Shown piece after piece: positions 2,479 through 29,441 of a DNA stretch of 31,359 nt. The notes under the pieces were generated by a model. It did not search any database, was not told the DNA's origin, and worked only from the letters and a program-made list of their open reading frames with translations. The DNA is from a virus, in the IMG/VR virus record IMGVR_UViG_3300007640_000144, positions 1 to 31,359 of that record; one strand, written 5' to 3'. The translations under genes and the position numbers were made by a program. How positions within the stretch are numbered: the first letter of the stretch is position 1; every line of letters begins with the position of its first letter.

Positions 2479-2486
2479 CCTACCTC
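2465..2486. terminator. Hairpin at convergent gene ends, possible bidirectional terminator
   Basis: A perfect 9-base inverted repeat (GAGGTAGGC, loop AATA, GCCTACCTC) covers the TAG stop of the + strand primase gene (2476-2478) and the TAG stop of the - strand giant gene (2480-2482). It would form the same stem in both transcripts. No U-tract follows on either strand, so it is not a textbook intrinsic terminator. It may instead protect mRNA ends or block read-through from opposing transcription. Confidence 0.55.
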
Positions 2487-5400: not shown

Positions 5401-8400
5401 GTACTTCCGTGTCGATGTAGGCTTTACGCGCAGCCTCATAGGACCTCCAGATTTCGCTGTCTCTGGTCAGCCCGTCGATACCCGGTACGCTGATGGTCTG
5501 TTCACCTTGTACATTTCCGTCCTCGTTGATGTTCGTGAACGTATAGCTGAAGCCATCGCGGGCGTCTTCGAACTTCAACCTGTACAGGTTGTCCAGACGT
5601 TCCAGTTCGTCAGTCGGTTTGTACGTACCCGTCGCTTCGTCGTACTCCACCAGCGGTGCCCGGCCTTTATCTGGCGTTTCGCGCAGCGCCATGATCGCAC
5701 GGATACGTGCATGATGCAGCAAGTTGTTAACACGTTCGTAATCCGCAGCCGACTTACCGAACAGCCCGGTGCCCGCTATCCCTCTGTTCAACGCCACACG
5801 CATGGTGGTGTTCAGTCGGTCACGCACCGACATGGCAATGTCCGACGCTTCCTGCAGGATGTCATGCAGTCGCTTGGACCCCGGGTTCACCCGTGAGTCG
5901 AACGTGCCAAGGCTGAGGAAGGTAGACTTGAACTTCCGCCAGTTGTTATCGAAGTCGCCCCATTTACCCTGCATTGCATCCAGCCCCTCTTGGAGACTGG
6001 TTGGGAGTTCTAACCCCATGCGTGCGGTTTCACCAATGGTGCGCATATCCTTGAAGCCTTCGCTCGCAGGCTTGTAACGACCGGGCGCGGTTCCATACTC
6101 TACGCTGCGCAAATCCCGCGCGATCTCGTTGAGATCGGTAGTGAATCCTCTCTGGGGGCTTCTAGCATACCGGCGTGCCTGCGAGAGCAGATAGCGAACC
6201 GAGTCATCCTTGAAGGAAATACCCAGCTTGTTGAGTGCATCCTTGATGGCGTTCCACACGCGGAGGATGAGACGCGTGTCCAACACCGCCGCGTAATCGG
6301 AGAGGAACTCCTCTACAGCTTCTGCTTTGCCAAGGTCTGGGTTTGCCTCCATGGCGGTATCGACACCGCGCTGGATCGACGAGTCGAGATCGTAAAGCCC
6401 TTCCATTACCTTGTCGAACTCAGCGTTCGGCAGGACACCGCGCAACCCGTAGTGACCAAAGGTTTCGTGCGCCAGCACGAACTTGAGGTGCTGCTCGTTA
6501 GCGATGCGGTCCGTGAAGATGATGACCTCGCCGTTACCAAACGAGTAGCCTGCTGCCGGGGCTTGGTCGAAGTCTCCTTGTGCACGCGCACCAGCGGCGC
6601 GAGCGTGCAGCGCCGGGTTGCGCTTCAGAAGGTCCGCCTGATCCTTGAACATATACATGCGCGGCGCGTTGCGCAGCCGCTTGAGGAACGACTTGGCAAC
6701 CATCTTCTGTTTGCCAAGAGGCATGGCCCCACGGATGGGTTTGCCGTCAGCGTCAACGGCGTTGGAGATGTCGTTCAGGTCAATCTGAGAGGTGCGCCCT
6801 GTCTTTTGCGAGCGCGTACCGCGAGTGGTCATGCTTGCCAAACCCGCTCCGCCGCGTTCGACCTGTTCAGGAGCGGCGGCTACGCGTTCCTGCGTGCGGG
6901 GGTCCGTCGCTTTCGGGTTGGGTACGATGCGCCCGCCTTGGAAGTTCACATACCCTTGGTTGTTGATGTATTGGTAGATCGGAATGGAGACTTGGTTGCC
7001 CTCGGCATCCTTTTGGATTTCGACCACAGAGCCGTATGCTTCCGGGTTTTGGCTGGCGTACTTATTGAACGCCCGCACTAACTCACGAAGACGGTTTTGT
7101 TCCCACCCTTCGGGGTTATGCGGGGCTTCATTGTACCCAACGATCTCGTCCACCAAGTCACTAGCCGGGTTGGAGGTGGTGTCGGCATCGACATCATTGG
7201 CAGTATTCAGGACACCCGTGTTAGCGAGCAATCTGTTGAGCGCTCGCATCTGCTCGGTGGGGTTAGGCTGCGCACGGGCGGCGGCGATTGTCTCCTCTGT
7301 CGCAAAGTCCAGCAGGGCTTCCTTGTCGGCTTTGGTCCATGCGTGTTCTGACAAAACGTCCTGTGCAAATGGTATGGGTCTCTTGTTGCCCAGAGCTTTG
7401 ACAGGCGTGCCGCCCTCGGCTGACGTAAACGCCGTCTCCATCAAGGTCCATAGCGCAGCCTCACGCGTGTCCTCGTCAACAGGCGTGACAGCAGGGTCTA
7501 GGCTTAGTATCGCTTGTGCCTCCAGCGGGGGATAGCTGGTAGTCTGCCGCAAGATACTGATCGCGGTCGTCACGTTCCCCCGGCCCGCTTTGACAGCATC
7601 AGACCACTGGCTTGCGAACGCGCCTTTGGAAATAGCCGTGCGCTCGACGGGCGCAGGCAGGAACGGTTTGACGTATTTATCCCACGCCTCCGTGACCCCC
7701 ATGTCCGTCGGAGCGCTGTCGCCACGTTTGGGCGGCGCTTCGGGTTCAGGTTCAGGTTCAGGTTCAGGTGCAACCTCAGCTTCCAAAACGCGGTCAATCG
7801 CAGCATCGACCCGGGCAGGATCATCGACCATCATGTCGATCAATCCATCAGTGTCGGTGTCCAGTTCAGTGAGCAGAGCGGTTTTCTGCTCCGGCGATAG
7901 CGCCATCTGGCGCTGGACTACTTCCGCGTCTTGGGCTTCGGCTTCACGCGCTCGGGCAGCTTCTTGCCCTTTGGTGTCTTTGCCTCGAACTCTCAAGCCA
8001 GCTTTGGGTCCTTTGCGTAGAGTGCTCTCCTTTGGGCCTTGCTTACGAACGGCATCTGGTGCTCCTTTCTTGGGTGCAGGTCCTTTGGGCGGGGTGGGGT
8101 CAGGGAACAGAACCGACTCGGGGTTGAGGACGAAGTACTCCGTCCAAGGGCGCGCACTCTTCGCATTGCGCGAGATGGCCACGCCGTCATACCCGGCGGC
8201 GCGTGCTGCGTTTGCCCGTGCGAGATCGGTGGCCTCGCTGACACCCAGCGTGCTGTCGAGGATTCTGCGAGACGCAACCTGCAGTAGATTGGAGAACTGG
8301 ACCTGCGCCGTCCGAATCGGCTGCTTGGCACCGCCTTGCGCCGCCTGTTCGTTGTCGGCCAGATACATAAAGCCGTCGGGTGCCGGGTCTGCACCCGGGG

Positions 8401-15077: not shown

Positions 15078-15434
15078 TTATCCCCTCAGTTGCGTGATGA
15101 GCACTTCCACGGTCGCCCGTAGGTTGGCCACGTCGTTGGCGAGTTTCTGTACATCGGTGATGAGTTGCGAGTAATCTTCGAGGACGGGAACGTTGGCCCC
15201 GCTGATGGTGACACCGCTGCCGTTTGCGCTGACCTGTCGCATGGATTGCTCAGGTGGGACAGACACAGTCAGACGAGCGCGGTTGATGGCCACGCTGGCA
15301 AGATCAGGTTCACCACGGGTTCCGGTCAGTAGCTCGACGTTCTCTTTGAGGGCGTTCAAAAGCTGTGATTGCCACTCCTCGATGCCGACGAGTGGGACCG
15401 CTGGGACCGCTGTATATCTGCTCTGTAGTGCCAT
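15078..15434 (-). CDS. Small hypothetical protein next to nozzle gene
   Basis: A 118-residue protein whose ATG overlaps the stop of the nozzle gene in a TGATG junction, so it is probably translated by re-initiation. The N-terminal half contains IEEWQSQLLNALKENVELLTG, a helix, and the C-terminal half (LEDYSQLITDVQKLANDVAN followed by LRATVEVLITQL) has a heptad pattern suggesting a coiled coil. No enzyme motif is visible. Its place between the nozzle protein and the virion-type proteins suggests a tail or assembly role, but I do not recognise the family. Confidence 0.55.
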   Translation of the reverse strand: MALQSRYTAVPAVPLVGIEEWQSQLLNALKENVELLTGTRGEPDLASVAINRARLTVSVPPEQSMRQVSANGSGVTISGANVPVLEDYSQLITDVQKLANDVANLRATVEVLITQLRG

Positions 15435-18058
15435 CAGACCTCTCTCAAACCTATCGGTGTCTCGGCAATACGCACAGTGCTCAGTCGCACAGAGCCTTCA
15501 ACACCTATCTCGAATGTATCCGAACGGTAGCCGCGAGGCAAACGAAACACTCTGCGACTGTCAAGTTGTTGGGTCAAGACCAGTTCGCCATCAACCCAGA
15601 GCTTGAAGGTGACACCGCCGTCGCTGTCCCACAGGATGGTAGAGGTGTCCCACGTATCGGTCACGGTGTCCCAGACGGGCGAGGTTGCAGCGTAGTCGGC
15701 ATCGACCTGTGCCGCGCCGATGTTGATCGGGTTCTCCGTTGTGATGATTTTGGATTTCCACTCGAACGGTTGGGCAGGTTGGTCAAGGTCGTCCCAGAGA
15801 TACACATCCCCGGCGGTTCCGGTGGCATAGTACAAGTTGTTGGTGAGCGGATCATACCACGTAGCCTCGGGCTGCTCGTCGGTCACGAGATCAACGAAGA
15901 AACCGCCGACGCGGTCGTCACGTTCGAAGCTGATGCCGCCTGCAGAGTGCCATGCGAGGTAGGTGTCTTTGTACGCCGTACCCACCAGCGTGGTCGGGTC
16001 GAGGTCTGCATTCCACGTGTCGCTGTTGTACAGCAGGCGGGTTGCAAGCTGCGGACCGGTCGTGGTCGAGTAGAGTGCCAGCCCGTCATGGGTGGCGTAC
16101 ATCACCCCGAAGCCCATGTTGGCAATACTGCGCTTGTTCAGGCAGGGGTACCGCGCATCGACACGCGTCAGACTGAGGACCACGGGGTCATTACCGGCGA
16201 CGAGGTAAGGGTAGTTCTCTGTGGCGACCAGCAAGTAGCCCGAGAACACAGCGAGACCCACGATGTTGAACGGGATTTCCTTTTTGTACACACGCGGCCA
16301 TGCGTGGTACTGGCCCGGCTCAGAGAAGTAGAGTTCGTTGCCGACAAAGCCCACGAGGATGTTGTTATTGTACAGCGTCAGGCCCTTGAGGCCCTCCGGC
16401 GGCGGGTCGTAGTCGTCTGTCGCCAGTGCATTGAGCAAGCTGGTCACGTTGAAATCGTCGGTGAAGTCGTACGATCCGTCGCCCCAGTACCGAGGCGTAC
16501 TCGTCCCGGGGTTCTCCGAGACATCGTGGTAGAGCGTGCCGCCTGCGCCGCCGGAACCGACACCGCCGGTGTAGGTGAATGTGTAATCGTCGATTACATC
16601 CGTGACTTCGCCACCGGCCACGCCCGTGCTGATTTTGAAATAGCTGCCCACTGTAAGATTATGGGGCTGCACAGTCGTGACCGTCGTGCCCACCACGGTG
16701 TCCACAGTCACAGGGAACCACAGAGTGGCAAGGCGCAAGTACTCTGTGTCTGCAACAGTCGAGAGCGTGCGGTACAGACGAATGCCTTGGACTTGGTTCT
16801 TACCTGCAGGTTTGGCCGTCGGCAGATTGCTGATCGTAACGACCTGACCTTCCTTGATGTACAGTTCATCGGAAGGCAGCGAGCCGATGGATTCCTCCTC
16901 CCACGGGGTGAACCACGTGTAGAGATAGCTGCGAGCCTGCGTGCCACCGGCAAGGTCAACACGTCCATCGCTGCTCGATATGGTCGAGACTTGAAAACCC
17001 GGACTGGTATAGGTGAAGGTCGTCGAGTCGATGACCGTAACCTCGATGGACGTAGCGTTCAGATTGGTGATGTCCCAATCCACGTTGCCGCTGGTCGTCG
17101 TATATTTGGTGGACGTAACGTCAAATGTGTCGGCTGTTGGTGTTGCCGTGACCGTGAAGATGTTCGCCGTGGCCGTACCCGAGGTGAACCGGAGCAAAAC
17201 ACGCGAGCCGATGGCCAGCCCATGACCGATGATTGTCACTGTGATGGTTGTGCCGGTCTGACTGTACGTCCCCGACCGGTTGGTAAACCCGCTGATCGTG
17301 ACGAAAGCACCTGACTTGAGGCCATGGGGTACAGAAGCCAAAGCTGCATAACCACCGGATGTATACGCCGCGTACCCTGTGCTATCTATTCCATCCAGAC
17401 TGAAAGTGTTTGCGTCAATCACTGTTACTGTAAACAGTAGATCGTTCACCTCTACCATGCCAACAACGTCGGTAATCCGAACAGTATCGCCAGTTGTAAA
17501 ACCATGTGCGGTCGCAGTTACAACAGCCGGATTTGCCTGTGTAATGCCGCTGATCGTGATTGCTGGGCCACCCGTAGCGACAGTAACGACACCTCCGGCA
17601 TCGCGCTCGTAGGTTGCCGTCGTCTTGGTGGTGAACGGCGTCTCGGTCGCCGTCGGGGTTTGCGTTGGGAGCGGCAGCCCGAGGTCATAATAGTCCACGG
17701 GGTAGGGCTGCGCCCCGGTCGTGGCCAAAGCGTAGGTAGACACCTTGGGTGCGCCATCGCCGGTATAATAGAACCGCTGCTCCTCGACATTCTCAGAGCC
17801 AGACGGCGTGACGATGTCCACATCTTTGTCCCACACGAGCCAGACGGGGTTGTTTGCCGGATCGTAGAGAGCGTGCAGTGTCACCGGTGCCACGCCAGAC
17901 AGCCCATGGTTGCCTGCGACAGAAGGCCGGGGGTAAGGGATCAAATCACCAGAGTACAGCTTGACATTCGTCGCCGTCTGCGCGGCCATATCGGGAAGAA
18001 GCTCCGGCGCGATACGCGGAGCCTTCCCTAAAAACCTCTGAAATTTGATCCCGGGCAT
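15434..18058 (-). CDS. Tail nozzle / head-tail stabilisation protein (T7 gp12-like)
   Basis: An 874-residue protein. The N-terminus (FQRFLGKAPRIAPELLPDMA then AQTATNVKLYSGDLIPYPRP) matches the opening of podovirus stabilisation or tail tubular B proteins, where the same region packs against the adaptor ring. Residues from roughly 170 to 530 contain several inserted small beta modules of the type HGFTTGDTVRITDVVGMVEV ... FSLDGIDSTGY, seen repeatedly in phage structural proteins. The remainder is a run of beta strands with conserved aromatic residues (FSEPGQYHAWP, VYLWDDLDQP), consistent with a beta-propeller platform. In T7 the equivalent protein closes the tail tube and opens at ejection. The Shine-Dalgarno is weak and the start lies just after a 14-codon reading frame, so coupling is likely. 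The nozzle family call is good; the exact subtype is not. Confidence 0.75.
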   Translation of the reverse strand: MPGIKFQRFLGKAPRIAPELLPDMAAQTATNVKLYSGDLIPYPRPSVAGNHGLSGVAPVTLHALYDPANNPVWLVWDKDVDIVTPSGSENVEEQRFYYTGDGAPKVSTYALATTGAQPYPVDYYDLGLPLPTQTPTATETPFTTKTTATYERDAGGVVTVATGGPAITISGITQANPAVVTATAHGFTTGDTVRITDVVGMVEVNDLLFTVTVIDANTFSLDGIDSTGYAAYTSGGYAALASVPHGLKSGAFVTISGFTNRSGTYSQTGTTITVTIIGHGLAIGSRVLLRFTSGTATANIFTVTATPTADTFDVTSTKYTTTSGNVDWDITNLNATSIEVTVIDSTTFTYTSPGFQVSTISSSDGRVDLAGGTQARSYLYTWFTPWEEESIGSLPSDELYIKEGQVVTISNLPTAKPAGKNQVQGIRLYRTLSTVADTEYLRLATLWFPVTVDTVVGTTVTTVQPHNLTVGSYFKISTGVAGGEVTDVIDDYTFTYTGGVGSGGAGGTLYHDVSENPGTSTPRYWGDGSYDFTDDFNVTSLLNALATDDYDPPPEGLKGLTLYNNNILVGFVGNELYFSEPGQYHAWPRVYKKEIPFNIVGLAVFSGYLLVATENYPYLVAGNDPVVLSLTRVDARYPCLNKRSIANMGFGVMYATHDGLALYSTTTGPQLATRLLYNSDTWNADLDPTTLVGTAYKDTYLAWHSAGGISFERDDRVGGFFVDLVTDEQPEATWYDPLTNNLYYATGTAGDVYLWDDLDQPAQPFEWKSKIITTENPINIGAAQVDADYAATSPVWDTVTDTWDTSTILWDSDGGVTFKLWVDGELVLTQQLDSRRVFRLPRGYRSDTFEIGVEGSVRLSTVRIAETPIGLREV

Positions 18059-19226: not shown

Positions 19227-19486
19227 ATACCTCCTTTCGCTCTGCTCTCCAGCAGGCGGTCGAGCTTGGCGTCGAGGGCCTCCAGCCGGTTCATCACGCG
19301 GTTGATGTCGGCGTGAACCTCACCCTTGGTGACATACTCCTTGGCCATTTCCTCACGCGTGCGGTTCAGCAGGATCGTGACCCGCTTCAGTTCTTCGACA
19401 TAGCTCCTGAGCACCCAGCCCAGCAGGCCGAATGCGAAGGTGAGAATGCCGTTCCAGATCATACCTGCTTCCATCGTCGTCCTCAT
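19223..19486 (-). CDS. Small membrane/coiled-coil protein upstream of endolysin
   Basis: An 87-residue protein with a hydrophobic segment (IWNGILTFAFGLLGWVL, about residues 10-26) followed by a long charged helix with heptad spacing (for example INRVMNRLEALDAKLDRLLE). The arrangement resembles XhlA-type and other small holin-associated proteins: one membrane pass plus a coiled coil. The first ATG overlaps the upstream stop, but its GGAG is only about 2 bases away; the ATG at 19474 has AGGA at a better distance and would give 83 residues. It lies directly before the amidase with an ATGA overlap, so it probably belongs to the lysis cassette, possibly as a second holin or an antiholin. I do not recognise an exact family. 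Confidence 0.55.
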   Translation of the reverse strand: MRTTMEAGMIWNGILTFAFGLLGWVLRSYVEELKRVTILLNRTREEMAKEYVTKGEVHADINRVMNRLEALDAKLDRLLESRAKGGI

Positions 19487-20100
19487 AACTCCATCGTGTT
19501 ACATTCAACCGCGCTGTTGAGCGGCGGTGCTTCAGAGAAAGTGAGCGTCGTGCCGGATACAGAATATCCGGCCTTGCCCTGATACACGCCGTCGATGAAG
19601 ACCAATGTGTGGTTCTTGGAGATTGGCGTCGTAGAAAGTGTAAAGTTGACCTGCGACCCGGTGCCGGTGAAGCTGTCTGCCGTGAAGTTTAAGGCAGCAA
19701 CCTGTGCGTCCGTGTAGGCCCGGAGGGCAGTATCGGCAGCCGCTACCTCTGCGTCCGTGTAGGCCCGGAGGGTGGCGTCCAACGTATTGATGTCGTCCGT
19801 GATCGCATCTTCGACCGAGGCTGCTGTGACCCTGATCTCGATGCGTCCACCGGCGGGGAAATGCTGCCCGGCAGTTCCTTCTTGGGCCCGGGTCACGGTG
19901 AGGGTATCCCCCACGCGGTTTGTGACCTTGATAATCTCCGGCCCAGTGGTCGGGCCAGAGAGCGTGGCATAGAAGTATTCCCCTGCGCTCAGGCTGGGGA
20001 ACAGGCTGCCCTGCCCCGAGGACAACGCAATACCGGTATCCGTCGCTGACAAAGCTGCAGCGAGCGTGGCAGATACGTTATTCCGCAGGAGCACAGGCAT
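19483..20100 (-). CDS. Tail fibre/adaptor protein with paralogous N-terminal attachment domain
   Basis: A 205-residue protein. Residues 1-95 (start MPVLLRNNVSATLAAAL; later GEYFYATLSG, EIIKVTNRVGDTLTVTRAQE and RIEIRVTAAS) are clearly paralogous to the N-termini of the 696-residue tailspike and of the 108-residue protein at 25161-25487. A middle helical repeat (LRAYTDAEVAAADTALRAYT) is typical of fibre shafts, and a C-terminal ~75-residue beta domain (NFTADSFTGTGSQVNFTLST ... TLVFIDGVYQGKAGYSVSG) is a form common in phage fibres and baseplate-type proteins. It may be a short fibre or a connector for other receptor-binding proteins. The Shine-Dalgarno is weak; only 2 bases separate it from the preceding gene. 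Confidence 0.65.
   Translation of the reverse strand: MPVLLRNNVSATLAAALSATDTGIALSSGQGSLFPSLSAGEYFYATLSGPTTGPEIIKVTNRVGDTLTVTRAQEGTAGQHFPAGGRIEIRVTAASVEDAITDDINTLDATLRAYTDAEVAAADTALRAYTDAQVAALNFTADSFTGTGSQVNFTLSTTPISKNHTLVFIDGVYQGKAGYSVSGTTLTFSEAPPLNSAVECNTMEL
19706..19772 (-). repeat. 22-bp direct repeat, offset 45 bp, in fibre shaft
   Basis: GCGTCCGTGTAGGCCCGGAG plus GG occurs identically at 19706-19727 and 19751-19772. Each copy encodes the LRAYTDA motif, so the shaft helix has been lengthened by duplication of a 15-codon unit. The two copies lie within one gene and stay in frame. Confidence 0.85.
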
Positions 20101-20102
20101 GG

Positions 20103-20405
20103 CTAGTGGCGGTCCTTGTCCTCGCGCCCAAGGCGCACGTTGATGTCATCAGATACAGTGAACTCACCGGTCTTTACACCGACACGATACCACATGAGTT
20201 CCGGTTCGAAACCAACTTCCTCAGTGGGCGCGGTGAAGGTGTCCACATCTACCCATGTCGCATTGTCGATGCTCCGCTGGACAGTCACCGTCGTCGTGGC
20301 GGTGAAGGTCGGCCCGGTCAGGGACAGGTTGAAGTACCCCTCCAGCCGGACAGCATCAGAAAAGGTGTTCTCAGCGGTGATGTTTTTGGTTGCGATGGTG
20401 GTCAT
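20103..20405 (-). CDS. Small beta-rich structural protein, unknown
   Basis: A 100-residue protein with alternating beta-strand pattern (VRLEGYFNLSLTGPTFTATT, VTVQRSIDNATWVDVDTF, LMWYRVGVKTGEFT). The motif of a strand followed by R-S-x-D-x-x-T-W is common in small phage virion proteins with a beta-sandwich fold that sit with fibre genes. Its ATG overlaps the upstream stop (ATGA) and a GGAGG ribosome-binding site lies 7 bases upstream. Placed between tailspike and fibre genes, it is probably a tail accessory protein or a chaperone; the sequence does not say which. Confidence 0.5.
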   Translation of the reverse strand: MTTIATKNITAENTFSDAVRLEGYFNLSLTGPTFTATTTVTVQRSIDNATWVDVDTFTAPTEEVGFEPELMWYRVGVKTGEFTVSDDINVRLGREDKDRH

Positions 20406-20659
20406 TCGCCTGCCTCCTGCGCTGCAGCGTAGGCTGCCTTGGCGTCTGCGGTGAAAACTGCCTTGGCGATCTTCGCCACGTCCGCATCCTCTGCGCTCAG
20501 ATCAGCGTCAGGCGTCAGCACATGGCGGTGGAAGGTGCGGCTGATCTCCACGCCGTCCTCTGCGATGATCGTGGCCGTTCTGACCTGCACGATGGGATAA
20601 CCCGCTGCCAGTTGCAGAACCTCGATCTTGTCGGCGATTGTCATTTTATTCAGTGCCAT
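20402..20659 (-). CDS. Small hypothetical protein in tail cassette
   Basis: An 85-residue protein starting after a strong AAAAGGAGG ribosome-binding site. The sequence has an N-terminal helix (NKMTIADKIEVLQLAAGYPI), a pair of strands (VQVRTATIIAEDGVEISRTF) and an Ala/Asp-rich helical end (VAKIAKAVFTADAKAAYAAA). There is no motif I recognise. Its stop overlaps the start of the 100-residue gene. It could be a fibre assembly chaperone or a small virion protein, judging by position only. Confidence 0.5.
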   Translation of the reverse strand: MALNKMTIADKIEVLQLAAGYPIVQVRTATIIAEDGVEISRTFHRHVLTPDADLSAEDADVAKIAKAVFTADAKAAYAAAQEAGE

Positions 20660-20708
20660 ATTGGCCTCCTTTTACCGTCCTTTCGGACCTGTCCACGCTC
20701 GAAGCGCA
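20660..20708 (-). other. 49-base intergenic gap with two short hairpins
   Basis: On the transcript strand this gap contains CGCT-TCG-AGCG (20696-20706) and GTCC-GAAA-GGAC (20677-20688), each a 4-bp stem, followed by the AAAAGGAGG ribosome-binding site of the next gene. The stems are too short to call a terminator. They could be mRNA processing or stability elements, or chance. Confidence 0.3.
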
Positions 20709-20885
20709 TTAACCATCTTTGCGGGGATCGGTGGCCAAATACAGGCCACCATCGTATCCCTCGACAACACTTGCTTCATCTTCATATGAACCCTCAGGAA
20801 TAGGATTTGCTCCTTTGCAATCATCCCATTCTCCGATGTTGATAAGATCACCATTCTGGTCTCGAATGATTTTCATAATGGTCAT
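20709..20885 (-). CDS. Small acidic hypothetical protein (58 residues)
   Basis: The frame beginning MTIMKIIRDQNGDLINIGEW is chosen over a competing frame in the same bases because it looks protein-like (charged, balanced, acidic) and because its ATG overlaps the tailspike stop as ATGA, the junction type used across this module. A second possible start is the ATG at 20876 (MKIIRDQ). Asp, Glu and Gly are abundant (for example GSYEDEASVVEGYDGGLYLA). No family is recognised. It could be a tailspike-associated protein or an unrelated small gene. Confidence 0.5.
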   Translation of the reverse strand: MTIMKIIRDQNGDLINIGEWDDCKGANPIPEGSYEDEASVVEGYDGGLYLATDPRKDG

Positions 20886-22339
20886 TTTGCAACCCATCCT
20901 GTATTGCCAGTTCCACTTTCCTTCACATACAGCGTTGTGCCAGCACCACCTGCAAGGTTTAGATACACGGAACCGGGCGAGGCTGTTTTGCTACCCTCCG
21001 GGCTTCCAGTTCCTGCTGATAGGCTGGCAGATGGTGCAGCAGTCCCGTCGCCCAAAAGTATATCCCTGTAAAAAGCACGGCTCTGATACCAAGGATGCGA
21101 TTGGCCATCGTTCCGGTATGCAACACCATCAACCGCGCCACCGTCATTGTAAAAGACAAGTGGCCCGTAGTTTGCCCCGCTGGTGGCAGCATTGTCTTGC
21201 TTCAAATTGTTGTAAAGACCAGTCTGTGCCCCAGTTGCGTCTTCGACAAGACCAATGCCAGAAACCAACGCTCCTTGAGCATTTACAAGTTGTAGAATGC
21301 TGTTCGTCTTGTCTTGGATGCGGAATGGCGCGTCAGACCCGCTGATGACTTTATAGCTATTGGAAATCGAAGTGGCGTTAATCACCGTCGCTGAACCAGA
21401 GTTTAGGATTAGGGCACGATCAACATTTCCTGATGCGCCATTACCAAAGTGTTTCCAGTCGACAATTTTTACAAAGACACCAATACTATCAGACGCAACA
21501 TAGACGTGCGCTTCGACTGGACCTTCTGTCCAAAGTCCGTAAAAACAGTTTGGCGAATAGCTGTCGGTTGCAACATACACGTTGTATCCAACATTATCCC
21601 CAGAGGAATAATAGTTATATTCGCAGTTCGCCCCGGTGAAGATGTTTCCATTTGTGCCGTTTGCAAAATAAATACCAGCGCCATCATTTTGCAAGCAGCG
21701 AATAAATGTAAACACGTTTGCATTCGATGGCAGGTTATTCGCAGAACCACCCCAAACATCAAAACCAGATGCGATATAAAGCCCGTGACTGCCGTTCGAA
21801 ATGCACTCAAGATTATTGATCTGGTTCACACCACATTGATACATAGCGACGCCAACATTTCCGCATCGTGAAACAGAGACGTTTTCGATTGTTGCTGATG
21901 TAAGCCGTAGAAAAGACAACCCGATCTGATTTGTTTTTGTCCTGTCACCAAGAATAGAAAAGTTGCGGAACGCAAGGCCAGCCACATCGTAAGTCCCAGT
22001 CACTGTAGGCGTTCCTGCGTTTCTCATTACTTGACCATCGACCGTTGGCCGAATGACTGTAGAATACTTCCCAGCACCTTCAACGCTGACATTCTGAGGA
22101 ACAGTCAAAGTTGCAGAGGTAAGATACTGCCCAGCAGGAAGCACAACAGTCCCGCCACCTTTGACCACATAGCCGTATCCGGTGAACGGAGTGTCTGAGA
22201 TTACAAGTGAGCCAGCCGCATCAAGCGCAGCCTGAATGGCAACAGTATCATCTGCAACGCCATCACCGACAGCGCCATAGTCTTTGACGTTAAAGAACGA
22301 TCCTTCGATCATCCTGTTATGTGCTTTTGTCAGCGCCAT
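20882..22339 (-). CDS. Beta-helix tailspike, pectate-lyase-3-like
   Basis: A 485-residue receptor-binding protein. Near the N-terminus VKDYGAVGDGVADDTVAIQA is the signature that opens Pectate_lyase_3-type right-handed beta-helix domains in tailspikes. The body has runs of short strands with Asn/Gly turns (GVAMYQCGVNQINNLECISN, FTGANCEYNYYSSGDN), as expected for a parallel beta-helix. The C-terminal tail (SVYLNLAGGAGTTLYVKESG ... GWVAK) recurs at the ends of phage fibres. Such spikes bind and often cleave surface polysaccharide. It lacks the paralogous attachment domain found in the other spike, so it must attach differently, perhaps to another cassette protein. Base composition is A/T-richer than flanking genes. 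Confidence 0.78.
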   Translation of the reverse strand: MALTKAHNRMIEGSFFNVKDYGAVGDGVADDTVAIQAALDAAGSLVISDTPFTGYGYVVKGGGTVVLPAGQYLTSATLTVPQNVSVEGAGKYSTVIRPTVDGQVMRNAGTPTVTGTYDVAGLAFRNFSILGDRTKTNQIGLSFLRLTSATIENVSVSRCGNVGVAMYQCGVNQINNLECISNGSHGLYIASGFDVWGGSANNLPSNANVFTFIRCLQNDGAGIYFANGTNGNIFTGANCEYNYYSSGDNVGYNVYVATDSYSPNCFYGLWTEGPVEAHVYVASDSIGVFVKIVDWKHFGNGASGNVDRALILNSGSATVINATSISNSYKVISGSDAPFRIQDKTNSILQLVNAQGALVSGIGLVEDATGAQTGLYNNLKQDNAATSGANYGPLVFYNDGGAVDGVAYRNDGQSHPWYQSRAFYRDILLGDGTAAPSASLSAGTGSPEGSKTASPGSVYLNLAGGAGTTLYVKESGTGNTGWVAK

Positions 22340-22350
22340 GTTTTAGCTCC

Positions 22351-23067
22351 TCAGGATGCCGTGTATTGACCAGTAAAATAGATGATTGTGTTTGCGGCAT
22401 CTGCCAAATCGGTTCCGCTTAGGTTCCCTCCAGTAGCCTTGTAACCAAACATAGAACCCGATGCGATCCAGAGTGATGCCGCAACGCCTGTGTTCAAGTA
22501 AGTAAAGAACGCCCCACCAATCTGACCGACAGAAAAAGGCAAACCAGTAAGCGTAAACTGGTCACCAGTTGCAGTTCCAGCGTTTGTGCTGATCTGCCCG
22601 GTGATTGTCACAAGGTTTCCGATTTTGGTATAGACACCACTTTGCGATGCGTATCCTACACCGGATATGCCCGCAGATACCGCAGGCGTCCACGTCCCCT
22701 CCTCATAGTCATCGAACAGTTCGCTTGTGCCAGTGCCAGAGGTGGCAGAGAAGTCGATGCCGTTGCCAGAAGGGACAATCAAATTCCCATCTGCAAGGAC
22801 AATGTTTTTATCGTATCTGACGGTCAAAGCAGGGTCTCGTCCAATCCGAAAGACATGACTGCCAAGGCCCATTTGATCGTAATAGCAAGTATATCCGCTT
22901 TGAAAGATTTCGTTGCTGTAGACACCACCTGAAAACTCATCAGATATTTTCAAAAGTGGTTCATTCGACTGAATGGTTAAAGACTTGACCGTAGCCAGCC
23001 CATCAACATCAACAGTCCCAAACTCAGGGTGTCTACCGAAAACACCGCCGTGCTGTTTGATCGTCAT
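22351..23067 (-). CDS. Tail fibre-like protein with EGTWTP-type C-terminal domain
   Basis: A 238-residue protein. The C-terminal half, starting at DDYEEGTWTPAVSAGISGVG and continuing through YTKIGNLVTITGQIS to the end, is a beta-rich domain found at the tips of many phage fibre and spike proteins. The first ~100 residues are a short beta stem with fibre-like sequence (FGRHPEFGTVDVDGLATVKS, VLADGNLIVPSGNGIDFSAT). The ATG overlaps the upstream tailspike stop by four bases, so the two are probably made together and may form one branched receptor-binding complex. The role is inferred from domain type and place. Confidence 0.65.
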   Translation of the reverse strand: MTIKQHGGVFGRHPEFGTVDVDGLATVKSLTIQSNEPLLKISDEFSGGVYSNEIFQSGYTCYYDQMGLGSHVFRIGRDPALTVRYDKNIVLADGNLIVPSGNGIDFSATSGTGTSELFDDYEEGTWTPAVSAGISGVGYASQSGVYTKIGNLVTITGQISTNAGTATGDQFTLTGLPFSVGQIGGAFFTYLNTGVAASLWIASGSMFGYKATGGNLSGTDLADAANTIIYFTGQYTAS

Positions 23068-25154
23068 TTAATCGTCCCCCATGTCGGAGTTGTGCCGCCC
23101 TGCGTGAAGAACACGCTGTTAGATGTTGCCGCATTGTTTACCGTCACACGGATGTGCTGATCGGCAGAGTTGAACCATTGGTCCAGAACCTCGACGTAAG
23201 CATAGCCAGATGCACCCCATGACGGGGCATTGGTTGCGGAGACTGCTGCAATGTCAACGGTGAAATAAGAGCCAGTCACCAGATCATTGAAGTCAAACGT
23301 CCATCCCGCTGGGAGCAGAGAACGGAAGCCGTAATTCTCACGGAACAAGAACCCTTCTACTGCAAGGATCGAACTGCCTGACAATGAGGCGAAAAGCTGT
23401 CGAGTTGAACTGGTCAGCGTGTTGTAGCAGTCACTGACTTCGATGTTCAGCTTGCTCGTCAAAGCACCGCCGCCATAATTAGTGTAGCCAATAGCATACA
23501 AACCCATTGGGCCACGAACATCATGGACGACAATGTTTGTTTTTGTGGACTTGGCTTCGACTTCACTTGCCTTGAACTCAACGATGGATCGATCCAGTGC
23601 ATTCGTCAAAGCGCCTATAGGCTGGATGACAAGCCCATTGACTTCTGTGTAACTCTCCAATGCAGTGGCTTGGTGGATTACAAAAGCATACCGAGGAATG
23701 AGAACCTCAGTCAGGATGGTCCCACCAATACTCTTGCCGACGTTCTGCTGATTGTCCAAAAGCTGTTGAAATGCCACAGGCGCAAAAGAGGCACCAAGTG
23801 GACTGGTCGCCCCGTTCAGGCGATACTCAAACAAAGGATCAACAAGAAGCGACGTTCCTCCTGTTTGGAAATCAAAATCCAAGCCGTTGGAAATCGAAAC
23901 GACGTTCTGACGGTAAACCTTTGGCCGCATCACCGTTACATCAGAGCATTGGCTCTTGAAGCTGCGCCCTTGGCAGTCAACGAATGTGGGTTCATTCAGG
24001 CGAACAGAGCCACCACGAGCATTGTATGTCGTGCCGAGTATTTTGCCGAGCGTGGCAATACCGTCTGCGTCAAAAGTTCCGCCGCCAACAAGGACGTTTT
24101 TCACATAAGGCTGATTGATCGTGACAACGCCCGTAAAAGCGCCGACAGAAATGCCCTTGCAGGCACCACCTGATCCAGCACGAGAAACGCCAACAACACG
24201 AGGTTGGTCAATAAGAACGGCCTCATAGTCGCCATAAACAAAGATAGCTTGGTTTTCGTAGGTGGCCGATGCATCAGTGTTGTAGCAATCAACAATAGTC
24301 ACAGGACATTCAATGTTGACCTGCCCACCTTGCGATGTTGCATTGTGACGAAACCCGATGGCACTTGCGGCTTTGCTGTTGCAGTCGATGTAGAGTGAAC
24401 CGCCAGTGATGGAGCAGTTATTGACCGCAGTTGTTTCGAGATAGAACAGATCACGGAAGCCAGTGGATGCAGCATCAACCGTAATGGTCACAGCACCCCT
24501 GCACACGATATGAGCTTCTCCAGATGCTCGCAGGACGTAAGGCTGGATGGGGCCAGTGACCCGAAAACTTCCTTCCAGATGCACAGGTATGCCAAGTGGA
24601 ATTGCGTAATCAAAAGCCGCCTTCAAAGCCGCAGTGTCATCCGTCACACCATCGCCTACGGCTCCAAAATCCTTTACGGACACGAAGTCACGCAGGCGGG
24701 ATTGAACCGTGCGGGTGACTGCACCCGCTCCGGGTGGGACATACTTCGTCGTGCTGGCCTGTGCAGCCTCCTGCAGCGCACCCTCGACGTTGTCTGAGGT
24801 GTAATACCCACCAGCGTCAGCGATGCTAATCTCTGCGGCTTGGTCGTGCTCATCCACGAGGTCTGTGATGGAGGCTGCTGTGACCCGCATCTCGACGCGG
24901 CTGCCCGTGCTGAACCCGTTGGCCGTCGTGCCCTCTTGCCCACGCTGAATGGCCAGCGTGTCACCGCTCTTGCCTGTGACCTTGACGATCTCGCGCGTGC
25001 CCTGTGCGCTCACCAGCGTGGCGTAGAAATACTCACCAGCCGCCAGTGCGGGGAACTTAGTCCCTTCGCCAGTCGCAACGACCATAGCCGTCTCAGACGC
25101 ATTGATCGCCTGAGCTAGGACACTATCGACGTTGTTTTTCAGAATGACCGGCAT
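23064..25154 (-). CDS. Tailspike: paralogous attachment domain plus beta-helix
   Basis: A 696-residue protein. Residues 1-100 (MPVILKNNVDSVLAQAINAS ... GEYFYATLVS ... RVEMRVTAAS) are shared with the fibre at 19483 and the stand-alone protein at 25161, so this is probably the virion attachment domain. A linker with YYTSDNVEGALQEA, a fibre-type motif, leads to VKDFGAVGDGVTDDTAALKA near residue 165, the opening of a Pectate_lyase_3-type beta-helix that fills about 160-560. The C-terminal ~120 residues form a separate beta domain, probably for trimerisation or receptor contact. A polysaccharide-binding or depolymerase role is likely from the fold; catalytic residues cannot be named. The N-terminal domain is GC-rich like the rest of the genome, the spike body less so. 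Confidence 0.78.
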   Translation of the reverse strand: MPVILKNNVDSVLAQAINASETAMVVATGEGTKFPALAAGEYFYATLVSAQGTREIVKVTGKSGDTLAIQRGQEGTTANGFSTGSRVEMRVTAASITDLVDEHDQAAEISIADAGGYYTSDNVEGALQEAAQASTTKYVPPGAGAVTRTVQSRLRDFVSVKDFGAVGDGVTDDTAALKAAFDYAIPLGIPVHLEGSFRVTGPIQPYVLRASGEAHIVCRGAVTITVDAASTGFRDLFYLETTAVNNCSITGGSLYIDCNSKAASAIGFRHNATSQGGQVNIECPVTIVDCYNTDASATYENQAIFVYGDYEAVLIDQPRVVGVSRAGSGGACKGISVGAFTGVVTINQPYVKNVLVGGGTFDADGIATLGKILGTTYNARGGSVRLNEPTFVDCQGRSFKSQCSDVTVMRPKVYRQNVVSISNGLDFDFQTGGTSLLVDPLFEYRLNGATSPLGASFAPVAFQQLLDNQQNVGKSIGGTILTEVLIPRYAFVIHQATALESYTEVNGLVIQPIGALTNALDRSIVEFKASEVEAKSTKTNIVVHDVRGPMGLYAIGYTNYGGGALTSKLNIEVSDCYNTLTSSTRQLFASLSGSSILAVEGFLFRENYGFRSLLPAGWTFDFNDLVTGSYFTVDIAAVSATNAPSWGASGYAYVEVLDQWFNSADQHIRVTVNNAATSNSVFFTQGGTTPTWGTIK

Positions 25155-25160
25155 CGTCCC

Positions 25161-25487
25161 TCACAACAGCAAAAAGTCCAGACTGTCGATGTAGTTCTGC
25201 AGGTTAGCCGCTGTGACCCTGATCTCCAACCGGCTGTTCGCCGCGAAGGGAATGGCCAGCGTGCTCTCCTGCGCCCTCTCGATAGTCATCACATCATCGG
25301 CGCGAGCAGTGACCTTGATGATCTCCATACCACCGGCGGTGCTGCTCAGCGTAGCAAAAAAGAAGTCCCCGGCCCCAAGGACCGGGAACAAGGAGCCGGT
25401 GCCAGTGGCAACGGTCAGGGAGGTATCGGTGCTTTGGATAGCCAGCGGTACTGTGGTCGTGGCGTTGTTTGTGATCTTCAGAACCAT
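25161..25487 (-). CDS. Stand-alone copy of the fibre attachment domain
   Basis: A 108-residue protein that is almost nothing but the ~95-residue domain found at the N-termini of the spike at 23064 and fibre at 19483. Shared positions include NN near residue 7, the pattern TGxGxxFPxLxAGxxFxATL, E-I-x-K-V-T, x-R-x-Q-E and R-x-E-x-R-V-T-A-A. It lacks any shaft or receptor domain and ends in a short hydrophobic tail (LDFLLL). It might be a docking ring or cap to which the longer proteins bind by the same contacts, or a remnant of a spike that lost its tip. Good coding character and regular spacing argue against decay. Confidence 0.65.
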   Translation of the reverse strand: MVLKITNNATTTVPLAIQSTDTSLTVATGTGSLFPVLGAGDFFFATLSSTAGGMEIIKVTARADDVMTIERAQESTLAIPFAANSRLEIRVTAANLQNYIDSLDFLLL

Positions 25488-25495
25488 CGGCTACC

Positions 25496-26266
25496 TCACG
25501 CGAATTTCGGGGCGGTGGCACGCATAGTGCCCCGCATGTTTCCAAGGTTGGCCCGCGCCCGGCGCTCCACCATCTCGCGGAGGAACTGCTTGGCGTGGTA
25601 GGACGCCAACTCGCGGTCAGACCAAGCGACGTTCGGAAGCACCAGAAGGTACTGCAGGGCACTGTGCAGGATGGCTTCCTCAAGTTCGTTGAAGATCATC
25701 TCATCCATACCCTCAGCATCACGCGATGGCTTCAGGGCGTAGAACATCCGGGTGGTGTAGGTCTTCTCGTCATCCGGCAGTGGCAGGACGATGTACTTGT
25801 CAGGCGTCAACTGCGTGATCGAGCGCGGCTCAGACGCCTTGGCCACCACAGCCTCGGGCAGCACGAACGCAGGGTCCTCGTTGAACAACCCATCGTTGTA
25901 TTCATAGGTGTTGAACGACCCCGACGGCGTCAGGCTCCACACAGTGGAGGGGTCCTCCCCGCTGTAGAGGTCAGCCCACTCAGGATATTGGGACAGGGCC
26001 TGCTCCAGCGTTAGCTTCGACAGCGGGCGGTCATTAACCATCGCGTCGAACAGGACGTGGACCTCAGTACCGACAGGCTTGTCGTAGATGTACTCATGTA
26101 CACCGGGCAGAAGCGGGAACGTGGGCTGGGTATAGCGCCAAGCAAGCGTGCGCTCGCACACGCGGATCGCCGCATCGCGGATGTACTGAATCATCGTGTA
26201 CTGGGGGCAGCCCGGCACACTTGGGTTCAGTCTCGGTACCAGTGATGCGAACGTGCGTGTCGCCAT
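25496..26266 (-). CDS. Connector/tail structural protein next to adaptor
   Basis: A 256-residue protein starting in a TGATG overlap with the adaptor stop, with a GGAGAA ribosome-binding site. The N-terminus (FASLVPRLNPSVPGCPQYTM) and following helix (IQYIRDAAIRVCERTLAWRY) fit a conserved phage family encoded beside head-tail adaptors. The middle is beta-rich (VHEYIYDKPVGTEVHVLFDA, KYIVLPLPDDEKTYTTRMFY) and the end is helical (LASYHAKQFLREMVERRARA). Together with its neighbour it has the size and place expected of head-tail interface proteins. I cannot say which ring it forms. Confidence 0.6.
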   Translation of the reverse strand: MATRTFASLVPRLNPSVPGCPQYTMIQYIRDAAIRVCERTLAWRYTQPTFPLLPGVHEYIYDKPVGTEVHVLFDAMVNDRPLSKLTLEQALSQYPEWADLYSGEDPSTVWSLTPSGSFNTYEYNDGLFNEDPAFVLPEAVVAKASEPRSITQLTPDKYIVLPLPDDEKTYTTRMFYALKPSRDAEGMDEMIFNELEEAILHSALQYLLVLPNVAWSDRELASYHAKQFLREMVERRARANLGNMRGTMRATAPKFA

Positions 26267-26910
26267 CAGCCAATTCTCCTCGGGTCAAGCCCTGCTTCAT
26301 CGCTATCCGTGATCTCGCGGGATTGCAGCGAGACCCCCAGACCCTGCGTAAACGCATCGAGGAATAGCTTGGCACGTCCAGAGTTCACGTGTTCATCGTC
26401 CACGGACTCGGCCAGATACACTGTGCCATCCACGATTGTCGGGAAGTACGCATCAATCGGGGCAGCGATTGGATCATTGAGGGCGTAATCCGTCGGCACC
26501 TTGGCGTATTCTGCGAGCAGTATAACGCCTGATACGGGCCGAGGGTAGAGAAAATATACATTCGGGTTCCGCACGTGCCGCATGAAGTTCACAGGCGTGC
26601 CTGCCGCCTCGCTGCGCCACCCGGGGTATGTCTGATCGAAGACATCCCGATCCACCTCTGTGATCGTGCTACCGTCCTTGACGCCGAAAATCTCTACCAA
26701 ACGGATCGAGTCAGCGGGCATCGACTGGACGGTGGTGTTCGCCGCCGTGCTAATATCCCCGATCTGCAGAAACAGATCAGGGCGATACATCGCTGCGCGC
26801 TTGAGCGTCTGGTTGACGAAGCCCAGCATATCAACGTCCGAATACCGCTGCGGCGAGCGGCTGTCGTTGATGAGCTTGCGGGCTTCAGAGATTACCTCGG
26901 CGGGTGTCAT
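26266..26910 (-). CDS. Head-to-tail adaptor protein (T7 gp11 / DUF6682-like)
   Basis: A 214-residue protein whose N-terminal helices (ISEARKLINDSRSPQRYSDV then DMLGFVNQTLKRAAMYRPDL) match phage adaptor proteins that I recall as DUF6682, which form the ring under the portal, like T7 gp11. A beta region follows (SIRLVEIFGVKDGSTITEVD; YFLYPRPVSGVILLAEYAKV) and then a C-terminal helix (SGRAKLFLDAFTQGLGVSLQ). The ATG overlaps the preceding stop (ATGA). Its presence is one of the main reasons for calling this a short-tailed phage. The family is recognised from memory of the motif and order, not by search. Confidence 0.7.
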   Translation of the reverse strand: MTPAEVISEARKLINDSRSPQRYSDVDMLGFVNQTLKRAAMYRPDLFLQIGDISTAANTTVQSMPADSIRLVEIFGVKDGSTITEVDRDVFDQTYPGWRSEAAGTPVNFMRHVRNPNVYFLYPRPVSGVILLAEYAKVPTDYALNDPIAAPIDAYFPTIVDGTVYLAESVDDEHVNSGRAKLFLDAFTQGLGVSLQSREITDSDEAGLDPRRIG

Positions 26911-27247: not shown

Positions 27248-27528
27248 CACCACTTAACGCGATCCGACCAGTACGCCGCCGACATCTTACCCTTGGCGAT
27301 GTTCTTGGCGTGGCGGGCTTTGAACGCCGCTCGACGCTTCTTGTCCGCATCGCTCTCACCCTTGCGAGCGGGCGATCCTTTCACCCCCTGCTCTCCGAAC
27401 CGGATGGTCTTCACCTGATCACCCTCTTTCGCCACGACCACATGCGACTTGGTGGGATGGCTCGGTGTGCGCTTGGGTTTGTTGTAGCCCTCCACACCGG
27501 CGCGTTCGAGGCGAGGGTCCTTTGCCAT
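27247..27528 (-). CDS. Conserved basic phage protein of unknown function
   Basis: A 93-residue, strongly basic protein. The sequence around RAGVEGYNKPKRTPSHPTKS, HVVVAKEGDQVKTIRFGEQG and FKARHAKNIAKGKMSAAYWS-DRVKW is a pattern I recall as widely conserved in phages of aquatic bacteria, generally placed among structural or DNA-handling genes and left unnamed. The KxxKTIRFGxQGVxGS core and the ARHAKNIAKGKMSAAYW end are the most recognisable parts. A strong AAGGGGGTGA ribosome-binding site lies upstream, and the ATG overlaps the fibre stop (TGATG). A nucleic-acid-binding role is possible from charge, but unproven. Confidence 0.6.
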   Translation of the reverse strand: MAKDPRLERAGVEGYNKPKRTPSHPTKSHVVVAKEGDQVKTIRFGEQGVKGSPARKGESDADKKRRAAFKARHAKNIAKGKMSAAYWSDRVKW

Positions 27529-28550
27529 CAGCTATTCACCCCCTTAAAGACCACGAAGTTGATGACTGGCGTGTCGCTCGGAGTGGCCGAGTTGTTGACG
27601 TTGTGAACCGATATTTTGCACGATCCAGCCGCTGTGGCCGTGACGGTCACATCGTAGGTCGCTGCTGTCAGGCCAGAGGCAAAGCTCACGAGCACCACAT
27701 CCGTTGCAGCGATGAAGCTGTTGGTCAGCGTGAACTCCTGAGAGGACAGACCAGAGATCGAGCCAGCGACCAGTGTGATCTGCCCGCTGATTTTATTCAG
27801 TGTTACGCCGGTCGTACGGCTCGTAAGCTGTGTTACCGTGCCGCCGGTGCCCGTGGGGTAGCCCATCGAGGTCGTAGCCGTGACAGTGGTGCCGCGCACA
27901 GAAGCTGCCGTGGTTGCGCCGACAGTCGTCCCGTCGATGGCTCCGCCGTCGATGTCCACCTTCGGGAGGTTCACCTCGCCCGTGCCTTTGGGCGTGATGT
28001 TGATGTCGATGTTCGTGTCGGTGCCGTCGGCCAGCAGGTCGTTCCCGGTCAGCGTCAACCCCGCTGCCGCGTCGTCGGTATAAAACCCGGTGGAAGTAAT
28101 CGACGTGATACCAGAAAAACTGCCGGTGAAGACGACGCCGGTGATCGACCCACCGGTGATGTTGATGTTGTTCGAGTTCTGAGTGGCGATGCTGCCCAGC
28201 CCGAGGTTGGTCCGCGCCCCGGAGGCGTCCGACGCGCCAGTCCCGCCGTCAGCGACGGCGAGGTCCGTGATCCCTGTGATGGTACCGCCGGTGATGGCCA
28301 CCTTGGTCATGCTGACCGAGCCGGTCCCGTTGGGGTTGAGGACGAGGTTGCCGTTGGTGTCCAGCGTGCGGATCGTATTGCCGTCAAGCTGGACGTTGTC
28401 TACCGAGGCGGAGCCTGTCCCGACCTTCAGGGCTGTCGCCACCCCTGCGGCGCTGTAGACGGTCTTCTCCGAAGCCGTAGGCCCACCATCCACATGCAGG
28501 ATTTGGTCGAAGGTGTCTTTGATCTGACTGCCTGTGAAGTTCGTGGGCAT
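27528..28550 (-). CDS. Tail fibre-like structural protein
   Basis: A 340-residue, charge-poor protein rich in Gly, Thr, Ser, Val and Ile. Near residue 100 it has DGGTGASDASGARTNLGLGS, a motif widespread in phage tail fibre shafts. It opens with MPTNFTGSQIKDTFDQILHV and then a ladder of short strands (LDTNGNLVLNPNGTGSVSMT; ITGITDLAVADGG; KGTGEVNLPKVDIDGGAIDG) as expected for a triple-beta-helix stem. The last 90 residues are a beta domain (QITLVAGSISGLSSQEFTLT ... NFVVFKG). It follows another fibre-like gene closely. It sits nearer the capsid genes than the spike cassette, so it may be a head fibre instead of a tail fibre. Confidence 0.6.
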   Translation of the reverse strand: MPTNFTGSQIKDTFDQILHVDGGPTASEKTVYSAAGVATALKVGTGSASVDNVQLDGNTIRTLDTNGNLVLNPNGTGSVSMTKVAITGGTITGITDLAVADGGTGASDASGARTNLGLGSIATQNSNNINITGGSITGVVFTGSFSGITSITSTGFYTDDAAAGLTLTGNDLLADGTDTNIDINITPKGTGEVNLPKVDIDGGAIDGTTVGATTAASVRGTTVTATTSMGYPTGTGGTVTQLTSRTTGVTLNKISGQITLVAGSISGLSSQEFTLTNSFIAATDVVLVSFASGLTAATYDVTVTATAAGSCKISVHNVNNSATPSDTPVINFVVFKGVNS

Positions 28551-28562
28551 GGTTTTGGTTCC

Positions 28563-29441
28563 TTATGCGGGGGTCACAGAAGCAGAACCATCCGCGACGT
28601 ACCACGGGTCAGCGGCGGCACTACCGTTGGCGATCATCAGTCTATTGTTGGTCGTATCATAGACCACTTTGCCCTGCACTTTGTCAGTCGTGTTGATCGC
28701 ATCCCCCACGGCTGCGATTGCCGTATCTGCTACGCTTTGCAGTACAAGGCCCGAGGTAACTGTCTGCTGCGCAGTGAACGTCTGCGCCACATCCGTCTTC
28801 ACCGTGTCGGCATCGTAGGCTTGGACGGTAACCCCAATGTCTGTATCGACGACAACATCCGACCCGCCATTCTGCAGCGCACCTGTGAAGTTCGCGGTCA
28901 CGTCATCGTACTTGGCTGTGTCGGCATCATAGGCTTGGACATCAACACCGATCTCAAGACCGAGAGTCACACGCTGGGCCGTAGCGTCTGCGTCGTCCAA
29001 GATCGCACGCCCTGCGGCAGTAAGGCTGGCCACCGTATATGTGTCTGCGGCTGTGGTGTAGATCATGTTGTCAGCGGCTGTAGTCAGCCCCGCAATGGAG
29101 GTCAGCCCTGCGTCGAGCGGCTGTTTCTCCGTATCGAGTTCGTTGATGGCCGCCTGCACAGTCGTCGCCGCAACGGCCCCGGCAGGCGTGTTCCCGATTA
29201 ACGCAGCGCCACCGGCAGCAGTAAGATCAGTGACAATCTCCGCTATGGCGGTCGGCACTGTGGTCGCTGATACAAACCCAGCGGGTGTATATGGCAAGTC
29301 CCCGACCATGCCATCGGCAAGCTGCGAGCGCGAGATACGCTTGGTCTCATCGGCATCAGCATCGAAGATCACGAGATCATCGTTATTGGCGCTACCTGCG
29401 CCAGAAAGAGCCGTGAGTCCTAAAATGCGAGTGCCGGGCAT
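28563..29441 (-). CDS. Fibre-like structural protein with AYDADT repeats
   Basis: A 292-residue, Ala/Thr/Asp-rich protein. The N-terminus holds DDLVIFDADADETKRISRSQ, a phage fibre motif. Two fibre-type helical motifs follow (VPTAIAEIVTDLTAAGG; TTVQAAINELDTEKQPLDAG), and then IGVDVQAYDADTAKYDDVTA and IGVTVQAYDADTVKTDVAQT, a duplicated motif common in fibre shafts. The C-terminus ends VQGKVVYDTTNNRLMIANGS and ADPWYVADG, again typical. Like its neighbour it lies between capsid-type genes and adaptor genes, so head-fibre and tail-fibre roles are both open. A GAGAGGAC ribosome-binding site lies about 9 bases upstream. Confidence 0.6.
   Translation of the reverse strand: MPGTRILGLTALSGAGSANNDDLVIFDADADETKRISRSQLADGMVGDLPYTPAGFVSATTVPTAIAEIVTDLTAAGGAALIGNTPAGAVAATTVQAAINELDTEKQPLDAGLTSIAGLTTAADNMIYTTAADTYTVASLTAAGRAILDDADATAQRVTLGLEIGVDVQAYDADTAKYDDVTANFTGALQNGGSDVVVDTDIGVTVQAYDADTVKTDVAQTFTAQQTVTSGLVLQSVADTAIAAVGDAINTTDKVQGKVVYDTTNNRLMIANGSAAADPWYVADGSASVTPA

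Follow-up and report, generated by a model that had tools for sequence, protein, structure and literature searches.

The stretch of DNA analysed here, referred to throughout as the window, comprises 31,359 nucleotides (nt) from an uncultured short-tailed phage (IMG/VR record IMGVR_UViG_3300007640_000144, positions 1-31,359) and encodes three proteins that open with one and the same tail docking domain. Their open reading frames all lie on the minus strand and encode 108 amino acids (aa) at 25161-25487, 696 aa at 23064-25154 and 205 aa at 19483-20100, in agreement with an earlier reading of this DNA made from the sequence alone. The sequence-only reading had also held that the three proteins share a domain and the pattern AGxxFxATL / EIxKVT / RxQE / RxExRVTAA, and both statements were borne out: the pattern was found in each protein, and pairwise BLASTP comparisons gave significant, ungapped alignments of 100-104 residues between the 108- and 696-aa proteins (43% identity, expectation value (E) 3e-28), the 108- and 205-aa proteins (48%, E 1e-27) and the 696- and 205-aa proteins (50%, E 1e-28). 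The domain is approximately 100 residues long, and a search of the window revealed these three copies and no fourth.

The three proteins differ in what follows the domain. In the 696-aa protein, residues 1-104 (24843-25154; PHROGs, BLASTP) precede a pectate-lyase-type spike, and the match to PF12708 (E 1e-7) supports the name of tailspike that had been given to it. In the 205-aa protein the domain occupies residues 1-103 (19792-20100); the name of fibre given to this product proved a poor one, since it contains no receptor-binding domain. The 108-aa protein has only 4-5 residues beyond the domain, with no distal receptor-binding or enzymatic part of the kind that a receptor-binding fibre carries, and ends in the tail DFLLL (25164-25178). 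It is called the bare docking protein below.

A GP4-type docking domain with its nozzle and adaptors

The docking domain was assigned to the tail fibre family phrog_8469 in PHROGs (E 1e-31 to 1e-33), and no model for it was found in Pfam or NCBIfam. The PDB gave one significant sequence match, the fibre of podophage GP4 (8jov_1, 18 copies in the portal-tail complex), with an E of 2.5e-21, or 1.8e-32 using a profile, and the domain is thus homologous to the N-terminus of that fibre. An AlphaFold2 (AF2) model of the 108-aa protein, built from a 67-row alignment, had a predicted local distance difference test score (pLDDT) of 89. It matched 8jov_1 in Foldseek (E 3.9e-9, 44% identity) and in VIA (Z 16.6, far above other matches), and the 205-aa protein matched the same chain with a Z of 15.5 over 116 residues, which is the part of the 439-residue fibre present in the structure library. 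Foldseek matches to the N-terminal barrel of V-ATPase were also obtained; these were attributed to a common beta-barrel arrangement and not accepted as kinship.

Relatives of the GP4 parts that surround the fibre are encoded nearby on the same strand. These are a nozzle at 15434-18058 (relative of 8jov_A, 6 copies; E 2.3e-53), a first adaptor at 26266-26910 (relative of 8jov_2, 12 copies; E 6.4e-11, PF24175 SU10_adaptor) and a second adaptor at 25496-26266 (relative of GP4 gp81, 8jov_G, 12 copies; E 1.7e-15), the copy numbers being those of PDB 8jov and known for GP4 only. Because the window encodes relatives of the GP4 nozzle and of both adaptors, the docking surface is probably the nozzle/adaptor region and not another copy of the docking domain. 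It had been proposed from the sequence that the three proteins form a modular docking system whose anchor itself has the fold of the domain; the modular system has a precedent in the Bcep22-like phages discussed below, but the same-fold anchor is not supported, given the nozzle and adaptors encoded in the window. The GP4 nozzle is said to bear six trimeric fibres of the docking-domain type. GP4, a Ralstonia phage (Gervaisevirus), resembles the window phage in its docking domain, by both sequence and fold, in its nozzle and in its two adaptors, but its docking domain heads a 439-aa fibre, unlike the bare 108-aa protein. A bare copy in GP4 was not reported in the literature searched, which did not include the GP4 structure paper.

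The nozzle of the window phage contains an inserted region of approximately 230 residues that is missing from the GP4 nozzle, and its residues 166-247 are similar (E 9e-7) to a domain found in ubiquitin-activating enzyme E1. The insert was considered as a second docking site and rejected, as long nozzles also occur in a relative without a bare gene (contig L032; contigs of relatives are cited by such handles). A megablast search of phage records gave no match, the other window proteins, concatenated and compared with the PDB, matched only over a short tail-fibre stretch (7z47), and a scan for prophage homologues in sequenced bacterial genomes confirmed none.

A separately conserved bare docking gene

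Scans of IMG/VR, for which the 108-aa sequence and the alignment of it served as queries, yielded approximately 85 distinct contigs. A complete stand-alone docking protein of 105-115 aa was present in 74 of these, representing 19 clusters at 80% identity. The bare gene usually lies 2-9 nt downstream of the second adaptor gene, and another docking gene follows it in 72 of the 74 contigs, the other two ending within 540 nt. The ratio of nonsynonymous to synonymous substitution rates (dN/dS) was about 0.03-0.13, synonymous change far exceeding amino-acid change as under strong purifying selection, and the relaxed selection and variable length of a decaying remnant were not found. The 108-aa protein is thus the product of a conserved gene and not a remnant. 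This bare type, as a separately conserved tail-docking gene, is new, and so is the make-up of the 205-aa protein described below.

In domain trees the bare copies clustered with a few re-extended copies found at the same gene position, here called slot 1 (159, 266, 268 and 1069 aa), and apart from nearly all fibre copies (support 92/88); the trees comprise approximately 100 columns only, so that their deep branching is weakly supported. Many positions distinguish bare from fibre copies, among them S19, D64 and N84 in the former against A19, G64 and G84 in the latter. Since cultured relatives are fibre-like at position 84 and never have D among their commonest residues at position 64, the bare type is probably derived.

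The bare type also has a C-terminal motif of its own. Of the 19 bare clusters, 17 have LLL among their final 5 residues, whereas none of 48 longer docking proteins has it; the motif follows linkers that vary in both sequence and length. Its codons vary freely at synonymous sites, which rules out an artefact of a Shine-Dalgarno sequence or slippery site. Fusion of the 108-aa gene to the 696-aa gene by read-through was rejected as a conserved device: the two genes share a frame in the window and in a few relatives, whereas in L014, L016, L018 and others they do not.

Some relatives carry two bare copies. Two tandem stand-alone docking proteins are encoded in L078, L083 and L085-L089, the second being of the fibre type and ending in SGGTY(S/P). 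In L085 no docking protein other than the two bare copies is encoded from adaptor to nozzle, and the next gene overlaps the stop of the second copy and encodes a docking-less fibre of 450 aa. Where the sequence allows it to be read, the docking-less fibre after two bare copies starts M(S/T)IILTKKKDTSGAPSASDLTNSTGG.

A docking-less depolymerase and its probable adaptor

The AF2 model of the 205-aa protein (pLDDT 90) consists of the docking domain, a helix at residues 93-136 and a beta module at residues 139-203, with no receptor-binding part. The 44-residue helix (19693-19824) presumably forms a trimeric stalk. In VIA the distal module (residues 138-205; 19486-19689) has the fold of T4 gp10 XD2/XD3, CBA120 TSP4 XD2 and the T7 gp17 N-terminus, with Z scores of 10.3 to TSP4 residues 187-250, 9.0 to T7 gp17 and 6.9 to T4 gp10, and a sequence match (E 7e-5) was obtained to the final part of the tail adaptor protein of Kp7. 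Residues 187-250 of TSP4 constitute XD2, which together with XD3 joins tailspikes (PMC8825819). Adaptors made of an anchor and a T4gp10-like module, without a receptor-binding part, are described in K1-5 (gp37) and KP32virus 2044-307w, where they serve a second spike that has a short conserved start peptide (PMC6872550).

A second spike of this description is encoded near the 205-aa gene. It is a docking-less, pectate-lyase-type depolymerase of 485 aa (20882-22339, minus strand; PF12708, E 9e-15) with the start peptide MALTKAHNRMIEG. Among relatives with at least 4 kb after the adaptor, docking-less spikes starting MxLTKxxxxMI were found in nine of ten contigs encoding a docking protein with the module and in 6 of 27 without one (p 3e-4, a value that is too favourable because the contigs are related). 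Since it combines a docking domain, a helix and a module of gp10/gp17 N-terminus fold and lacks a receptor-binding part, the 205-aa protein is probably a branching adaptor, the likely cargo being the 485-aa depolymerase. It resembles the T4gp10-like adaptors (K1-5 gp37, G7C gp66, CBA120 TSP4 and the first receptor-binding protein of KP32virus 2044-307w) in uniting an anchor with a gp10-like module, without a receptor-binding domain, and in the nearby spike, which lacks a docking domain and begins with a short conserved peptide. It differs from them in its GP4-type anchor and in having a single small module, carried by the 44-residue helix, within a total of 205 aa.

The arrangement of these genes varies among relatives. 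In two contigs (L018:5415-5918 and L021:5811-6314) a 167-aa docking and gp10-like adaptor precedes the bare docking gene instead of following it. A conserved 117-aa gene lies directly after the slot-1 docking gene in L020:3932-4285, L022:3139-3492, L042, L084 and L103, and the group with this gene includes the contigs that have docking-less spikes without a gp10-like adaptor. The first-adaptor gene is duplicated or triplicated in tandem in L021:3736-5036, L022:2-1869, L023:487-2471 and L030:248-1548.

Three further genes of the window were also noted. The product of 28563-29441 (minus strand) has approximately 49 N-terminal residues (MPGTRILGLTALSGAGSANNDDLVIFD...) that are conserved in relatives, followed by a remainder that is wholly different in sequence and in length (75-702 aa); judged by this pattern, its N-terminus is a second, different anchoring module. 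In the product of 27528-28550 (minus strand) approximately 210 N-terminal residues are conserved and the distal part is variable in several relatives, and it is probably another fibre or appendage protein. A giant protein of 2724 aa (2480-10654, minus strand) matched only PHROGs whose function is not known, and these only in part; it may correspond to the DarB-like giant proteins found in Bcep22-like phages.

Roles proposed for the three docking proteins

Several fibres with a common docking domain are already known in the Bcep22-like phages (Lessievirus: BcepIL02, CSP3, JC1), and this feature of the window is not new. BcepIL02 and CSP3 each have four docking-domain fibres, BcepMigl has three and the more distant Itty13 has two. 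In the Bcep22-like phages, however, all examined copies of the domain head proteins of at least approximately 290 aa and none is bare, and the genes between adaptor and fibres differ from those of the window phage.

We suggest that the three copies perform three jobs, as a bare socket, a directly attached spike and a branching adaptor, and assign this explanation as a whole a probability of roughly 0.55. The docking domains would plug into the nozzle/adaptor region of a GP4-type podovirus tail. The 696-aa protein would be a depolymerase spike attached directly, and the 205-aa protein would dock by its N-terminus, its helical stalk presenting a gp10-like branching module to which the docking-less depolymerase is probably attached. 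The 108-aa protein would be a bare docking subunit retained as a tail part in its own right, completing the tail or holding other parts; it probably fills dedicated docking-ring positions beside the docking domains of the fibres, and its LLL tail probably locks onto an adjacent tail part or onto a fibre encoded by a separate gene. The results set out above show homology, fold, gene order, conservation, selection and co-occurrence, while presence in the virion, placement on the tail, what the LLL tail binds and the match of the 205-aa protein with the 485-aa one are inferred. A broader proposal, that a widespread group of uncultured podoviruses retains a dedicated fibre-less docking subunit as a regular component of the tail and uses it to anchor separate fibres or neighbouring parts through its C-terminal tail, is offered more tentatively and is rather less probable than its opposite.

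Several observations weigh against these assignments. L032 (57.7 kb) lacks a bare copy and has a single docking gene, which encodes 822 aa, while its nozzle is 79% identical to that of the window over residues 241-874; the bare protein can therefore be lost and is not essential to this type of tail. LLL is missing from one sub-clade, which ends in ALAP/ALTP, and from L090, which ends in GGTY. Residues 53-60 and 77-84 seem too strongly conserved through ascertainment, as they lie within the scan patterns, a bias of which the C-terminus is free. As for the adaptor, the contigs behind the co-occurrence count are related, six contigs, apparently a single clade, encode a docking-less spike but no gp10-like adaptor, and the gp10-like fold is seen in anchors such as T7 gp17 as well as in branch points such as T4 gp10, which makes the fold alone ambiguous.

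Competition of receptor-binding proteins for one anchor had been put forward from the sequence; in one form of this reading a homotrimer of the bare protein would act as a blank plug, competing with spike and adaptor trimers for nozzle sites and thereby giving fewer fibres and mosaic virions. The fold and conserved core are the same in bare and fibre docking domains, L032 manages without a bare copy, and different virions of Bcep22-like phages with three to four such fibres have been suggested to carry different fibres (CSP3 paper, after Gill et al.; PMC10269572); in JC1, proteomics detected the first of three fibres with the domain and neither of the others (PMC9144972). We nevertheless regard competition as an unlikely role for the bare protein, since the bare type is an old, separate paralogue with type-specific residues and a C-terminal motif of its own, and since both copies in L085 are bare. 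Without a docking-domain fibre to compete with in that contig, a structural or adaptor role is favoured. The bare protein might be an adaptor itself, its C-terminal peptide capturing a separately encoded docking-less fibre. In L078, L085, L086 and L088 the stop of the bare protein ending in SGGTY(S/P) overlaps the start of a docking-less fibre of 450-530 aa, and short peptides are enough for fibre-adaptor attachment in K1-5-like phages (PMC6872550). Against this, L019 and L024 have the LLL tail and no docking-less spike was found in them from adaptor to nozzle by a motif search that can miss other fibres; the same two contigs led us to reject the LLL tail as a dock for depolymerases of the 485-aa type. 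We consider this reading doubtful.

A helper in fibre docking, whether assembly factor or chaperone, that is absent from the finished virion would suit a small, co-operonic gene that always has a docking fibre alongside where the contig is long enough, but the fold is that of a structural docking domain and no precedent was found, making this role improbable. Least credible of all is that the gene is a fibre gene stripped of its distal part and in the course of being lost. Truncated receptor-binding proteins that retain the attachment part alone are known, as in the Klebsiella phage KpV767 (PMC6872550), and the second docking gene has been independently reduced in some contigs. The KpV767 case, however, is described as a single truncation, whereas the bare gene is both old and conserved, and for the slot-1 gene a remnant is refuted by the dN/dS values, the near-constant length over 19 clusters and a C-terminus conserved through synonymous codon change.

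The preferred reading, three copies with three jobs, bears on how such tails are built. An anchor domain persists here as an independent, conserved tail protein, and beside it stands what is probably a very small branching adaptor in which a gp10-like module is joined to an anchor of GP4 type. Should the proposed roles be true, they would explain how several receptor-binding proteins share out one docking platform, and whether they do so by distinct sites, by mosaics or by branches would become directly testable. Under the broader proposal of a fibre-less docking subunit that anchors separate fibres through its tail, receptor-binding proteins could be swapped in evolution as whole, separate polypeptides.

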